Shown in pieces: positions 16,873 to 22,496 of a DNA stretch of 28,445 nucleotides. Where the stretch lies: positions 1 through 28,445 of IMG/VR virus record IMGVR_UViG_3300030328_000271. The stretch is one strand, 5' to 3'. The notes below the pieces were generated by a model. That model was given only the letters and a program-made list of their open reading frames with translations, was not told the DNA's origin and made no database searches. The stretch is from a virus. The stretch's first letter is position 1. Each line of letters starts with the position of its first letter. The translations under genes and the position numbers were made by a program.

Positions 16873-17083
16873 AATGAAATTACCACTTATTAGAGTTGAT
16901 ATTGGTAATAATCGAAATAGATGGTTTTGGGATGAGCATGAAGCTATAATTTTTGCAAGTGGTTATTACAATACCGATACATTTGTTAAAAATCAACATC
17001 CAATATTTGAACATGGTTTTAGCGTAGACCATAAAGATATTTGCAAATTTTTAAATGAAATGGAGATTAAAAAAAATGGCTAA
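16859..17083 (+). CDS. Small hypothetical protein
   Basis: 74-residue protein with Trp and His in 'N-R-N-R-W-F-W-D-E-H-E-A-I-I-F-A-S-G-Y-Y' and 'H-P-I-F-E-H-G-F-S-V-D-H'. It has a good GGAG Shine-Dalgarno before ATG 16859. It ends 8 bases inside the replication initiator-like gene, so the two are coupled. No known domain. It could be a replication accessory protein from position alone. Confidence 0.5.
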   Translation: MITSKMKLPLIRVDIGNNRNRWFWDEHEAIIFASGYYNTDTFVKNQHPIFEHGFSVDHKDICKFLNEMEIKKNG

Positions 17084-17717
17084 ACGATTTATAGATACTA
17101 AGTTATGGGATAAGGCTTGGTTTAGAAAACTATCCCCACAATCTAAATTATTATGGGTTTATATAATAACTAAATGCGACCACGCTGGAATCTTAGATGA
17201 GGATTGGGAAGCTGCATCGTTTTTTATTGGTTATAAAATGAACGATGATTTAATACCAGTTGTCATTAGAGATAAAATGATACCTTTAACAGAAACTAAT
17301 CAATATTTTATTCCATCGTTTATAGAATATCAATATGGTGTGTTAAGAATTAATTCTAAACCACATTTATCTGTTATTAAAAGACTAGAAGAGAAAGGCT
17401 TAAATAACTATTTACAAAAGAGTTTAATAACTCTTAAAGATAAAGATAAAGAAGAAGATATAGATAAAAGACAAGATAAGTTTATAGATAAAGTAAATGA
17501 GGTTATAAAAGAGAAAAAATATAGCAATGATGAAACTAATAATTTTGTAGGATTTTGGACAGAGCGTAATAACTCCAATACTAAGATGCGGTTTGAACTT
17601 CAACAGACTTTTGATATTGCTAGAAGATTGGCAACATGGGTAAGAAATAATAAAGAGTGGAAAATAAACAAGAAGGAAAATAATGAGCGAGAAGAAATGC
17701 AGTTCACAGGAAGCTAG
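17076..17717 (+). CDS. Winged-helix replication initiator-like protein
   Basis: 213-residue protein. The start 'R-F-I-D-T-K-L-W-D-K-A-W-F-R-K-L-S-P-Q-S-K-L-L-W-V-Y-I' is typical of phage DnaD/O-like replication proteins, where W-x-x-L-S-P-x-x-K-L-x-W begins a winged helix. Residues about 115-150 are a lysine/aspartate-rich linker (D-K-D-K-E-E-D-I-D-K-R-Q-D-K), followed by a C-terminal helical region. ATG 17076 is chosen for its GGAG at 17062-17065. It probably recruits host helicase to the phage origin; no iteron cluster was noticed inside the gene. Confidence 0.6.
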   Translation: MAKRFIDTKLWDKAWFRKLSPQSKLLWVYIITKCDHAGILDEDWEAASFFIGYKMNDDLIPVVIRDKMIPLTETNQYFIPSFIEYQYGVLRINSKPHLSVIKRLEEKGLNNYLQKSLITLKDKDKEEDIDKRQDKFIDKVNEVIKEKKYSNDETNNFVGFWTERNNSNTKMRFELQQTFDIARRLATWVRNNKEWKINKKENNEREEMQFTGS

Positions 17718-18081
17718 TTTTTTTGTTAATGACTTATTTGATACATTAGACATTAAAGGAAACAACCAACTATTATTCAATCAATTTTGTAGCCTATTAA
17801 TGAAGTTTGATAAGGAGACAATTAAAAAGGCTTGGAAAGATATTGTTTATAGTTGTGAACCGCCTAATGGACAAATGGCGGGTAGACTTCCTAAGATGTT
17901 TGTTATAGAAAAAATATTAATGAGCAATAGGATAGATTCTTTTAATATAGAACATCGAGCAAATAAGAAAAAAGAAATAGAGGCAGGAACAATATCTAAA
18001 TTATTTAATTGGGGTATTGAATATCATGAAGGGAAAATAACTAAACAAGAACTAGAAAAAAGGATAGATGAAAATTTATGA
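17683..18081 (+). CDS. Replication-module helical protein, helicase-loader partner?
   Basis: 132-residue helical protein overlapping the initiator-like gene by 35 bases. It carries no Walker motif, so it is not a DnaC-type ATPase. 'C-E-P-P-N-G-Q-M-A-G-R-L-P-K-M' is a distinctive loop. Overlap with the winged-helix gene suggests a physical partner, perhaps a helicase-loading adaptor. It is ATGA-coupled to the cytosine methyltransferase, so replication and modification genes share one transcript. Confidence 0.45.
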   Translation: MSEKKCSSQEASFFVNDLFDTLDIKGNNQLLFNQFCSLLMKFDKETIKKAWKDIVYSCEPPNGQMAGRLPKMFVIEKILMSNRIDSFNIEHRANKKKEIEAGTISKLFNWGIEYHEGKITKQELEKRIDENL

Positions 18082-19169
18082 TTTATAAAATTCCAAGTAT
18101 GTCAGATATTAAAAATATTAAGTCTAATGGATATAATGTTATATCAACATTTAGTGGATGTGGTGGTAGCAGTTTAGGTTATAAGATGGCAGGTTATAAT
18201 GTATTATGGGCAAACGAATTTATACCAGCGGCGCAAAAATGTTATGAGGCTAATCATTTAAATACATTTTTAAATAAAAATGATATAAGAAGTATAACAA
18301 TAGAGCAGATAAAAGAAGAAATAAATAATAAAGATATTGATATTTTAGATGGTTCTCCACCTTGCGCTAGTTTTTCAATGGCTGGTTCAAGAGAAAAATC
18401 TTGGGGTAAGGAAAAAAAATATTCTGATACTACACAAAGAGTTGATGATTTGTTTTTTGAATATGTTCGATTAGTAAAAGGGTTGCAACCAAAAATATTT
18501 ATTGCTGAAAATGTGCCAGGTTTAAATATTGGAAATGCTAAAAATATTTTAGGGCAAGACCAGATGGATTTTTTCAATACTCAAGAAGATACTATTTTAT
18601 ATCAATTAAGAGCTTGTGGGTATAATGTTCAATTTAGGGTTTTAAATGCTAAATATTATGGAGTTGCTCAAGCTAGGAAAAGATTATTTATTGTGGGCAT
18701 TAGAAACGATTTGAACATGATTCCATCTTATCCTAATAAAAAAGATATTATTTATGATGCTAAAAGTGCTTTTTATGATGTTGTTAATACAGATAAAGAT
18801 ATTTTAGATAGTACACATAAAGATGGAATTGTAAAAAGTTATGTAATGCAATTAAAAGAGGGGGAAAGTGGCGATAAATATGCTCCTAGTGGTTATTTTG
18901 GTTTGCAAAGAATATGGTTTAATAAACCATCTCCAACAATATGTCAAAGACAAGGTAATAAAGGTGCTTGTTTAATCCATCCTAAAGAAAATAGAGAATT
19001 AACTGTTCCTGAATTAAAAAGACTACAAGGATTTCCTGATGATTTTATTTTGAATGGTAGTTACAAGCAAAATTGTGAGAGAGTAGGTAGGTCAGTTCCA
19101 CCACCATTAATGAAAGAATTATCAAAGCATTTACAAATAAAGGTATTGGATAAATATTATGAAAGATAA
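18078..19169 (+). CDS. C5-cytosine DNA methyltransferase with G-R-S-V motif X
   Basis: 363-residue enzyme that transfers a one-carbon unit from SAM, or a SAM analogue, to C5 of cytosine. Motif I is F25-S-G-C-G-G30, catalytic motif IV G92-S-P-P-C96, motif VI E144-N-V, and motif VIII Q198-A-R200-K-R202. The target-recognition region lies at about 215-280. Motif X reads V-G-R338-S-V-P-P-P-L, with Arg where almost all family members have Asn (G-N-S/A-V). All catalytic residues are kept, so the enzyme should be active, but its cofactor pocket differs. The ATG overlaps the upstream TGA and the end overlaps a CmoA-like gene by 11 bases. I infer that it may use carboxy-SAM and make 5-carboxymethylcytosine. 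The target sequence is unknown, and no partner restriction enzyme is visible. Confidence 0.92.
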   Translation: MIYKIPSMSDIKNIKSNGYNVISTFSGCGGSSLGYKMAGYNVLWANEFIPAAQKCYEANHLNTFLNKNDIRSITIEQIKEEINNKDIDILDGSPPCASFSMAGSREKSWGKEKKYSDTTQRVDDLFFEYVRLVKGLQPKIFIAENVPGLNIGNAKNILGQDQMDFFNTQEDTILYQLRACGYNVQFRVLNAKYYGVAQARKRLFIVGIRNDLNMIPSYPNKKDIIYDAKSAFYDVVNTDKDILDSTHKDGIVKSYVMQLKEGESGDKYAPSGYFGLQRIWFNKPSPTICQRQGNKGACLIHPKENRELTVPELKRLQGFPDDFILNGSYKQNCERVGRSVPPPLMKELSKHLQIKVLDKYYER

Positions 19170-19875
19170 AGTAATAAAAAATAAATCATGGGAATTTGAC
19201 AAAGAAGTGACAAGCGTGTTTGATAATATGTTGGAAAGGTCTATTCCACAATATGAGCAAATGCGACTATTGGTTTCTAAATTATCATCTGAAGTAATTA
19301 ATGATATTGATATACCAACAAAAACAATAATAGATATTGGATGTAGTAAGGGCAGAGCTTTAGAGTCAATATATAAATTACATCCATATTTAAAATATAT
19401 TGGGATAGAATATAGCAAACCAATGTATGATTATTGCGTAGATAAATGGTCAGATAAGAATAATGTATCTTTTTTAAATACTGATTTATGTGACTTTTAT
19501 CCAAATATAGATAGACCAGATAATGTATTATGTTTATCAATATTGACATTGTGTTTTATTCCAATAGAATATCGCTCATTTGTTTTGACTAATATTTATA
19601 ATTCATTATGTAAGAATGGCGCATTAATTATTGTAGAAAAATGTTTATCAAATAATTATGCAACTTCTAATTATATAGATAATATTTATTATGATATGAA
19701 AAAAACAAATGGCTACACCCAAGAACAAATAGCTAGTAAAAGAAAATCATTAGAGGGTGTATTAGTGCCATTGCAAACATCCTTTAATGAAGAGCTATTT
19801 AGACAAGTGGGGTTTAATAAAATTGATGTATTTTGGAAGTATTTAAACTTTACAGGATGGGTGCTTATTAAGTAA
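19159..19875 (+). CDS. cmoA: CmoA-like carboxy-SAM synthase
   Basis: 238-residue Rossmann methyltransferase-fold protein that closely matches CmoA, which makes carboxy-SAM from SAM and prephenate. Landmarks in order: W11-E-F-D with D-N-M-L-E-R-S-I-P (22-30); motif I D59-I-G-C-S-K-G65; N-G-Y-T-Q-E-Q-I (184-191); K194-R195-K-S-L-E-G-V; and the C-terminus F-W-K-Y-L-N-F-T-G-W-V-L-I-K. Arg195 aligns with the Arg I recall as contacting the Cx-SAM carboxylate (E. coli Arg199). E. coli CmoA is of similar length. In bacteria Cx-SAM feeds CmoB for tRNA modification, but no CmoB gene is seen here; the neighbour is a DNA methyltransferase, which overlaps this start by 11 bases. A different small-molecule methyltransferase remains possible. 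Confidence 0.85.
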   Translation: MKDKVIKNKSWEFDKEVTSVFDNMLERSIPQYEQMRLLVSKLSSEVINDIDIPTKTIIDIGCSKGRALESIYKLHPYLKYIGIEYSKPMYDYCVDKWSDKNNVSFLNTDLCDFYPNIDRPDNVLCLSILTLCFIPIEYRSFVLTNIYNSLCKNGALIIVEKCLSNNYATSNYIDNIYYDMKKTNGYTQEQIASKRKSLEGVLVPLQTSFNEELFRQVGFNKIDVFWKYLNFTGWVLIK

Positions 19876-19911
19876 CTCTTACCTAACTCTTAAAATAAAT
19901 AAAAAAAAGAG

Positions 19912-19940
19912 TTGACTGGTGTTGTTTTATTCCATATTTT
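19912..19940 (+). promoter_or_regulatory. Sigma70-like promoter for the amidoligase operon
   Basis: TTGACT (19912-19917) and TATTTT (19935-19940) are separated by 17 bases. The start point would be near 19947, within a copy of TTGTGATTAT that also follows the promoter at 13.2 kb. AACTCTT at 19874-19880 and 19885-19891 can pair with AAGAGTT at 19907-19913, which overlaps the -35 box. It drives the amidoligase, amidotransferase and cyclotransferase genes. Confidence 0.65.
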
Positions 19941-19982: not shown

Positions 19983-20999
19983 ATGAATACAAAAGGAAAA
20001 TTTAATAATAATAGAGGTTTTGGAGTTGAAATCGAGTTCATCAGACCTAATAGTGTTTCTAAGCAAATTATATGTGATGCTTTAACAGTTACTTGTGAGG
20101 TAGAGGGATATAATCATATCACTAGACCTCATTGGAAAATTGTTACTGATTGTTCAGTAAATGAAAATGCTAACCAATATAGTAGAGGTTTGGTAGGAGA
20201 TAATGAAATTGTTTCTCCAATTCTTTATGGCGAAAATGGTTTTGCTCAGTTAAAGAATATCTTAGACACTCTTAATGAATTAGGATGTGAAGTTAATTAT
20301 ACTTGTGGCATTCATGTTCATCACGATGTCACTAATAAGATGGTTGAAGGTAAAGAGCAGAGTCAAAAATTTTTAGCTAACCTTGTAAAATTTGTTGCTA
20401 AATATGAGCATCTAATTTATAAGTTAGTTTCTCCATCAAGATTAGATGGTAGAATGTATAGCACTCCTGTGAGAAAAGAGTTTTTTGGACAAGCTGTAAG
20501 AATGGGAGAGTCAATAGATAAGGCTGATGTTAAAAAAATGGTTGCTAGAGTTAAAGATAATTGTGAGCGTAAGTATCGTTATAGTAGTGAGATTAACAAT
20601 AACCAACCATCTCCAAGCGTTCAATATAATAGAGCTTGTGGTCTTAACTTTCGTAATGTTTGGACAAGAGGGTCTGTTGAGTTTAGATATCATAATGGTT
20701 CTTTAAACTTTGATAAGATTGTTTCATGGATTGTTTTTACTCAAGCGATTGTTAATACAGTTGAAGATTCAAATGCTATTCAAATGAACTATGTTCCTAA
20801 TAATTATAAAGGAATTACTAGAATGAGAAAAGCAATAGGTTTTGTTTCAACTTCTAATAGAGATGATGTTGTAAAATCTTCTAGTGCTTATATGTTAAAG
20901 AGATTTAAGCAATTAAGCGCAAGAGAAGATGATTATGCAAGAAATAGACAATATAGTTATGTTCAAGATGGACTAACTACAAACCAAATAGGAGCGTAA
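19983..20999 (+). CDS. Amidoligase (COOH-NH2 ligase)
   Basis: 338-residue glutamine synthetase-like enzyme that should join a carboxyl group to an amine using ATP. Amidoligase_2 landmarks: F-G-V-E16-I-E18 (metal/ATP), T55-D-C-S, E75-I-V-S-P, C108-G-I-H111-V-H113-H114-D, and S231-V-E-F-R-Y-H-N-G-S-L-N. ATG 19983 is chosen because it follows GTGAGGAAA and the leader; an upstream in-frame start lies in the operator. It is followed by an amidotransferase and a cyclotransferase, the trio described by comparative genomics (Iyer, Aravind and colleagues, from memory) as a predicted peptide or metabolite-conjugating system. The carboxyl substrate is unknown. Here a modified nucleobase is a new possibility. 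Confidence 0.85.
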   Translation: MNTKGKFNNNRGFGVEIEFIRPNSVSKQIICDALTVTCEVEGYNHITRPHWKIVTDCSVNENANQYSRGLVGDNEIVSPILYGENGFAQLKNILDTLNELGCEVNYTCGIHVHHDVTNKMVEGKEQSQKFLANLVKFVAKYEHLIYKLVSPSRLDGRMYSTPVRKEFFGQAVRMGESIDKADVKKMVARVKDNCERKYRYSSEINNNQPSPSVQYNRACGLNFRNVWTRGSVEFRYHNGSLNFDKIVSWIVFTQAIVNTVEDSNAIQMNYVPNNYKGITRMRKAIGFVSTSNRDDVVKSSSAYMLKRFKQLSAREDDYARNRQYSYVQDGLTTNQIGA

Positions 21000-21000
21000 T

Positions 21001-21891
21001 ATGTGTGGTTTAGCGGGAATTATTTTAAAACAAAAAGATAGAGACAATGAGACACTTAATCGTGTCTCAAGGTCTTTTTCAAAAATGCTTACAGAGGCAG
21101 ATGTAAGAGGTGGTCATGCCACAGGATTTGCTTTAATAGATAAGTATGGAGATTATGTAATATGTAAAAAGCCAAAAGATGCTTATGACTTTTTTAATGA
21201 TAATGAAGTTAAAGATAATATTAGTTTGGTTTATGATGGCATCACTACAATGATGGGTCATACTAGATATGCGACATTAGGTTCTCCATCAATCAATAGT
21301 AACAATCATCCAATTAGGACAGGTCAAACGATAGGAACTCACAATGGTTCTATATCTAATCACAAAGAGCTATTTCATAAGTACAATATGAAACGATATG
21401 CTCAAGTAGATAGTGAGGCGATATTTAGATTGTATGAGACTTCTAATAATGTTGATGAGTTCTTAGATGATAGATTGCCAAAAGTTCAAGGTCGTGTTGC
21501 GATTGTTTGGGCGGACTTAGAGCGACCAGATTATGTTTATATGGTAAAAGCTAACAATCCGATTCAAATGGTTTATATTCCAGAGTTTGATTGTTATGTA
21601 TATGGTAGCACCGATACAATTATAGATGCGGGTTTATGGCACTATTATAAGCGTATTACGATAGAACCTAATACAATGGTTAGGATTGATACTAGGACTC
21701 TTAAGATTGATACAAAAGATATTAAGATAAAAGAACCAAAGCCAAGAAGATATTCGTTCTACGATTCAAAGATTGGAGCATATAAAGACGAACCTCAAAC
21801 AGTTGATAGATTCGTTCCGAGGTTTTCGTATAGTGACCAATTAAAAATGTTTAAAGCTAGTGATGGCTCAAAGATAAGGAAGGTAAAATAA
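21001..21891 (+). CDS. Class II glutamine amidotransferase
   Basis: 296-residue N-terminal nucleophile amidotransferase. It begins M-C2-G-L-A-G-I-I with the catalytic Cys directly after Met. G-H-T-R-Y-A-T near residues 82-88 and T-H-N-G-S-I-S-N-H near 112-120 form the glutamine-binding and oxyanion parts. It releases ammonia from glutamine for a partner synthase. The natural partner is the amidoligase one base upstream. No synthase domain is fused, so ammonia must pass to another protein. The C-terminal 60 residues are basic and variable. Confidence 0.88.
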   Translation: MCGLAGIILKQKDRDNETLNRVSRSFSKMLTEADVRGGHATGFALIDKYGDYVICKKPKDAYDFFNDNEVKDNISLVYDGITTMMGHTRYATLGSPSINSNNHPIRTGQTIGTHNGSISNHKELFHKYNMKRYAQVDSEAIFRLYETSNNVDEFLDDRLPKVQGRVAIVWADLERPDYVYMVKANNPIQMVYIPEFDCYVYGSTDTIIDAGLWHYYKRITIEPNTMVRIDTRTLKIDTKDIKIKEPKPRRYSFYDSKIGAYKDEPQTVDRFVPRFSYSDQLKMFKASDGSKIRKVK

Positions 21892-22496
21892 TGATTGAAG
21901 TATTCGTATATGGTACATTAAAAAAAGGTGGCAGTAATCATTTTTTTTTAAAAGATTGTAATTTTGTTAGGCACGAGATTTTAAAAGACCATGCAATTTA
22001 TGCGCCAAAAGGTTTTTCGTTTCCATTGCTTATGCAAAGTAAGGGAGATAAGGTATATGGAGAAGTCTATCGTATAAGTAGCACAACATTAGCTAAATTA
22101 GATATGCTTGAAAACGAGGGAATTTTATATACTCGCGTTAATGATATTGAATTAGGGTTTCAGTATTATCTTTTTAATAGAGAATATGGAGATGTCGCTT
22201 GGGATGAAGAGCATGATAAAATACCTAATGGATATTGGAAAACCATGATGGAAGTTGATTTGAGCTTAATAATAGATAATCGTAACTATACAGATAAGGC
22301 AGATAAGTTAGTATTTCACATGAGATTTTTTGATGGGAAACGAGCGCCAACAAATAAAATCTATATGGAGTTAGTAAAGAAAAGAAGTTATTTAGATTTA
22401 AACACCGAAAATGAAGAGATATTTTTAAGGGATTGTATAATCGAGGGAGTTGTAAGTGAGTTCAGAGAGCCAATACATAGATTCTATAATATGTAA
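21891..22496 (+). CDS. Gamma-glutamylcyclotransferase-like protein
   Basis: 201-residue protein with the AIG2/GGCT pattern: V-F-V-Y-G-T-L-K-K-G-G at residues 4-14, later G-E-V-Y-R-I and L-A-K-L-D-M-L-E-N-E-G, where the catalytic Glu lies. Such enzymes release 5-oxoproline from gamma-glutamyl amines or peptides. Residues about 115-201 are an added domain of unknown fold. It is TAATG-coupled to the amidotransferase and is the third member of the amidoligase trio. It may remove a gamma-glutamyl group from an intermediate or recycle side products. Confidence 0.75.
   Translation: MIEVFVYGTLKKGGSNHFFLKDCNFVRHEILKDHAIYAPKGFSFPLLMQSKGDKVYGEVYRISSTTLAKLDMLENEGILYTRVNDIELGFQYYLFNREYGDVAWDEEHDKIPNGYWKTMMEVDLSLIIDNRNYTDKADKLVFHMRFFDGKRAPTNKIYMELVKKRSYLDLNTENEEIFLRDCIIEGVVSEFREPIHRFYNM

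Follow-up and report, generated by a model that had tools for sequence, protein, structure and literature searches.

An amidoligase, glutamine amidotransferase and cyclotransferase cassette of a marine-type phage with a small amidoligase-partner domain

The window analysed here is a linear virus record of 28,445 bases, possibly a fragment (IMGVR_UViG_3300030328_000271), of a marine-type virus that infects bacteria and whose terminase shared only about 40% identity with diverse phages. Its plus strand encodes, at positions 19983-22496, an amidoligase, then a class II glutamine amidotransferase (GATase) and then a gamma-glutamylamine cyclotransferase (GGACT). These genes are tightly coupled; the GATase start lies one base beyond the amidoligase stop, and the GGACT start overlaps the GATase stop as TAATG. 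The same order was kept in 28/28 family contigs spanning the region (with an insert before GGACT in a few). The original prediction of three coupled genes with full motifs was borne out, with profile scores far above chance and complete motifs, and the gene content, motifs and coupling of the cassette are established in the present analysis.

The amidoligase of 338 aa (19983..20999, with its ATG at 19983 and its stop at 20999) has a GS-like fold by family and was recognised by the Amidoligase_2 profile (PF12224) with 104 bits against a curated cut-off of 22 (E = 1.3e-29), the ExE, HxH and ExR residues being conserved. Across 15 sequences the residues G14, E16, E18, H111, H113, E233 and R235 were invariant and look like those of a metal/ATP site, while no homologue was found when the amidoligase profile was compared with solved structures. 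The GATase of 296 aa (21001..21891) consists of a GlmS-type glutaminase domain only and was detected by the GATase_6 profile (PF13522, 2.7e-15). The Cys2 nucleophile and the HTR, HP (NHP/LHP-type), HNG and Asp (VDSE) motifs expected of class II enzymes were all found; they are conserved as far as Arthrobacter phages and can be aligned with those of 1XFF, the glutaminase of GlmS. The third gene (21891..22496) encodes a 201-aa fusion in which the GGACT portion spans about 21900-22241 and matches the PF06094 profile at 8.6e-20. It carries the YGTL motif, and E74, Y7 and G8 were invariant. An AlphaFold2 model of the protein (pLDDT 92, pTM 0.87) matched human GGACT (3JUB/3JUD, the latter being the E82Q mutant), catalytic glutamate included, placing the protein in the GGACT/AIG2 cyclotransferases. 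The fold and the catalytic Glu are thus common to both proteins, but the window protein has an additional domain, here called c12.

The c12 domain, about 75 aa at the C-terminus of the GGACT protein (22248..22472), did not figure in the original prediction; it was conserved in every relative reaching it, and in distant phages a separate small protein comes after the amidoligase. When only stand-alone copies were used to build a profile, it found the GGACT C-terminus with E-values of 5.5e-6 and 1.2e-5 in two relatives (L008 and L029), and it was weaker on the window's own copy (0.058, reversed decoys reaching 0.5 at best). Profile-profile alignment of stand-alone c12 with the GGACT C-terminus by hhalign gave 96.3% and an E-value of 1.6e-9. 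An independently predicted structure, that of a viral protein of 86 aa, also matched the domain (TM 0.74). No significant named family was found for c12 in Pfam, NCBIfam or PHROGs, and the best E-value of a fold search against the PDB was not below 0.7. The small proteins of phiEco32 and gp20 and gp23 of LUZ24 were considered as c12 members and rejected, as they gave no match. By these comparisons, c12 is an undescribed protein family and a new fourth component of the cassette.

Most stand-alone c12 copies, in phages as well as bacterial genomes, lay 0-100 bp downstream of amidoligases; this position alone is no test, because the loci had been fetched via the amidoligase. Whole genomes were also counted (126 genomes, 8 copies), and c12 was beside an amidoligase in 8/8 cases, in eight whole genomes, about 100 bp downstream, with two pairs in one genome. 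Among 119 Bacteroidia genomes the sole c12-bearing genome was also the sole amidoligase-bearing one, and no c12 was found in the 118 that have no amidoligase. We conclude that c12 depends on the amidoligase. The pairing is not strict in the reverse direction, since within 3 kb of the 103 amidoligase groups with enough flank c12 was present in 56, GGACT in 50 and GATase in 28. It had been suggested that the conserved neighbourhood be searched for an always-present carboxyl substrate enzyme; none was fixed, and the constant companion of the cassette in the neighbourhood comparison was c12, a small undescribed domain. As a separate observation, an amidoligase-c12 pair of Bacteroides xylanisolvens (L165:4853-11845, its stand-alone c12 at L165:6714-6947; also in L172 and L174) lies by a ParA-like gene, and the nearby genes seem to resemble a conjugative-transposon tra region.

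Few c12 positions were conserved and none was invariant, a pattern that may fit binding rather than catalysis. Single proteins joining GATase to GGACT were also found, in phage C75C1 (L013:6711-7604) and at L083:6085-7047, with a weak N-terminal GATase-like match and GGACT at the C-terminus. Together with the GGACT-c12 fusion they link these components to a single pathway. The small partner downstream and the two-gene mobile module might also suggest that the amidoligase is paired with c12 in the manner of a toxin and its antidote, with GGACT undoing a toxic modification. We hold this to be very improbable: c12 is fused to an enzyme in the window, it is missing beside many amidoligases, and c12-less amidoligases persist in phages.

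The trio itself is already known. Amidoligase, class II GATase and gamma-glutamyl cyclotransferase lie close together, as in the window, in phiEco32, LUZ24, RIO-1 and PSA-HP1, where they were predicted to form a phage peptidoglycan modification cassette (PMC5498523, PMC3890496), a prediction for which PMC5498523 cites papers of Iyer and Hardies. The cell-wall action of the phiEco32/LUZ24 cassette is likewise a prediction (PMC5498523, PMC11318856), and no experimental test of it was found in the literature searched. The earlier statement that the trio belongs to a predicted system without a known substrate agrees with these reports (PMC5498523, PMC3890496, PMC11318856). The window holds the core of the phiEco32/LUZ24 cassette, with amidoligase, GATase and cyclotransferase together, but the five-gene form of these phages has in addition an ATP-grasp ligase and a COOH-NH2 ligase, and the window has neither. 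A search with LUZ24 gp21 detected the ATP-grasp ligase in phiEco32 but in 0/9 window-family records, which may be incomplete; the COOH-NH2 ligase (PF14395) was detected in LUZ24 and phiEco32 and was absent from the window and the relatives searched. Since both ligases are absent, the window cassette was filed as a variant and not as a five-gene member. The c12-GGACT fusion was not found among the tested LUZ24 and phiEco32 cassette proteins. The Arthrobacter phages Salgado and Ottawa carry the same three families contiguously as a bare trio (PMC5513430), though with GGACT first in the order, unlike the window. In Ottawa a weakly recognised c12-like protein, gp67, which belongs to an unnamed PHROG, is located after the GATase, whereas c12 of the window is fused to GGACT.

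Upstream of the cassette, a tandem direct repeat with an 11-bp period, TAACTCTTA-cc-TAACTCTTA(AAA), is located at 19873..19895 on the plus strand. It occurs once in the window, against a chance expectation of 0.04, and is conserved; the exact form was present in 18 loci, about 100 bp before the amidoligase wherever that start was mapped. The repeat accompanies the trio irrespective of the genes in the slot upstream, and, lying ahead of the cassette, it looks like an operator. A candidate sigma-70-like promoter (TTGACT-17-TATTTT, 19912..19940, plus strand) is weak, with 9/12 consensus matches; such sites were not above chance frequency, and the -35/-10 hexamers were not conserved in relatives. 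Of the original idea that the trio has its own promoter, separate regulation is supported by the conserved repeat, but the promoter match itself does not rise above chance. As the trio and the repeat are conserved while the slot genes change, the trio is probably a separately regulated resident unit.

The slot before the trio swaps DNA-modification genes across the family, and the trio stays constant. It holds a CmoX-CmoA pair in the window and L008, an N6/N4 methylase in L005 and L006, a TAGT glycosyltransferase, in some cases joined by an epimerase, in L002, L004, L007, L018, L023-L027 and L114, dUTPase with thymidylate synthase in L017, L028 and L097, and an ordinary C5 methylase on the opposite strand in L019, L020 and L022; L029 is an exception, no modification gene being recognised there. 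Non-representative members were assigned to families by BLAST clusters. These genes are probably exchangeable cargo. Two further features of this region may be recorded: TET-associated glycosyltransferases (PF20691) at L002:4192-5040 and L018:4088-5712, two in tandem in L018, with no TET gene seen nearby, and a pair of conserved genes, 220 and 132 aa long, that precede the slot (window 17055-18081) and are common to many relatives. In the wider neighbourhood, enrichment was weak and non-significant both for N6/N4 methylases (7/139 near, 1/132 far, p = 0.07) and for ParB (8 against 3, p = 0.22). Because the slot content varies across relatives, the trio cannot have one and the same modified base as its substrate family-wide. 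A fixed link to DNA modification was rejected for the family, as the slot changes and CmoA was present in 2/21 records. The view that the trio is separate from the modification genes was supported, three genes and repeat being constant while the preceding genes vary; a tie between the trio and the neighbouring modification genes was not supported, the slot content differing from relative to relative. The cassette is independent of the DNA-modification genes, with the trio beside a DNA-carboxylating pair in two genomes counting against this.

That pair was characterised further. The CmoX-like DNA cytosine C5-carboxymethyltransferase (18078..19169, plus strand) had as its top PDB match 8YF3, the crystallised SpCmoX (1.7e-65), and carries the SPPC motif as well as an Arg at the M.HhaI N304 position, which in CmoX reads carboxy-SAM (PMC12783734); the ordinary C5-MTases of L019, L020 and L022 have Asn instead of Arg and no SPPC. 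The CmoA-like carboxy-SAM synthase (19159..19875, plus strand) matched the CmoA structures 1IM8 and 4GEK (E = 8.5e-26 and 2.1e-22) and phrog_4752 (5.5e-61). Both genes are adjacent to the cassette and were judged to lie outside it. With the Arg, the SPPC motif and an encoded CmoA, window 18078-19875 has the features of a natural 5-carboxymethylcytosine pair without CmoY; the two genes overlap, and PHROGs annotate them only as DNA and tRNA methyltransferase.

CmoA-CmoX-CmoY is a newly described DNA carboxymethylation-amidation pathway, the last step of which is CmoY, an AMP-forming, ATP-dependent amide ligase that joins an amine and in some cases has a glutaminase domain (PMC12783734). CmoX and CmoA are also encoded directly upstream of the window trio, but a CmoY-type gene (PF00733) was absent from the window and from the CmoX-bearing relative L008, the positive controls being detected. 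In chemical terms it is an attractive idea that the trio amidates the carboxymethylated base: amidoligase and GATase would amidate the carboxymethylcytosine made by CmoX and CmoA in the window phage, replacing CmoY. CmoX keeps the decisive Arg and SPPC, CmoA is intact, the published pathway finishes with an amide ligase (PMC12783734), and only 108 bp separate CmoA from the trio start on the same strand. Yet CmoA was found in only 2/21 trio-family records, the trio being in every region-spanning family contig, and the trio has an upstream element of its own. Furthermore, amidoligase, GGACT or c12 occurred at 0/84 other CmoX loci, many of them on short contigs, and CmoY-like ligases at about 36 of these 84. 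The window amidoligase belongs to an enzyme family different from CmoY and, with no PF00733 match and no co-occurrence with CmoX elsewhere, neither it nor the GATase can be counted as CmoY or as a conserved stand-in for it. We thus consider DNA tailoring by the trio quite unlikely, and the same small chance is given to its mechanistic form, in which a GS-type ligase unrelated to CmoY would amidate 5-carboxymethylcytosine while GGACT-c12 trims or docks.

We instead propose, with a probability of roughly 0.4, that a resident, DNA-independent cassette forms and cleaves an amide on one constant host-derived carboxylate, most likely of the host envelope. The reactions and roles that we infer are as follows. 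The GATase would free ammonia from glutamine, and the GS-like amidoligase, using ATP, would couple the carboxylate to this ammonia or to a different amine. GGACT would cleave gamma-glutamyl amides to 5-oxoproline and the free amine, and so may reverse or trim the cassette product. The c12 domain, judged from fusion and adjacency, may be a small non-enzymatic partner docking on the amidoligase, with the GGACT fusion holding ligase and hydrolase together. The cassette would in this way change a host envelope component, e.g., the peptidoglycan stem peptide, and exclude competing phages or elements.

An envelope component is the most likely target on the basis of the published prediction (PMC5498523, PMC11318856). 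The module was found in phages and genomes of both Gram-positive and Gram-negative hosts, and an envelope role fits this spread and the bacterial-chromosome copies, whose neighbours resemble prophage or conjugative-element genes. Also in its favour is a peptidase M15 gene ahead of the amidoligase in another phage lineage (L044, L047 and L054), where a metallophosphoesterase gene, too, lies directly before the amidoligase. The two other phiEco32/LUZ24 ligases missing from the window family count against the wall model. The enzyme chemistry would suit equally well a soluble target (a metabolite, a nucleotide or a protein of the host, for instance a toxin or defence signal) which gamma-glutamylation or amidation silences. 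Gamma-glutamyl protection and deprotection pathways provide a precedent for such a target, and the module is located in phage accessory regions and mobile-looking genome regions; but no conserved substrate-supplying gene was found and the immediate neighbours are diverse, and we regard a soluble target as possible, if rather unlikely.

What is new at this locus is the c12 domain, the form of the cassette without ATP-grasp and COOH-NH2 ligases, and the constant trio with its own repeat behind a swapping slot that here holds CmoX-CmoA. Since the cassette is uncoupled from the DNA-modification slot next to it, the search for its substrate is directed away from DNA, the exception being the natural CmoX-CmoA pair directly before the amidoligase. 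For a cassette long cited as a system predicted to exclude superinfection or to modify the wall, c12, which in whole genomes occurs only beside the amidoligase and in the phages of the window is fused to the cyclotransferase, provides a new experimental handle.
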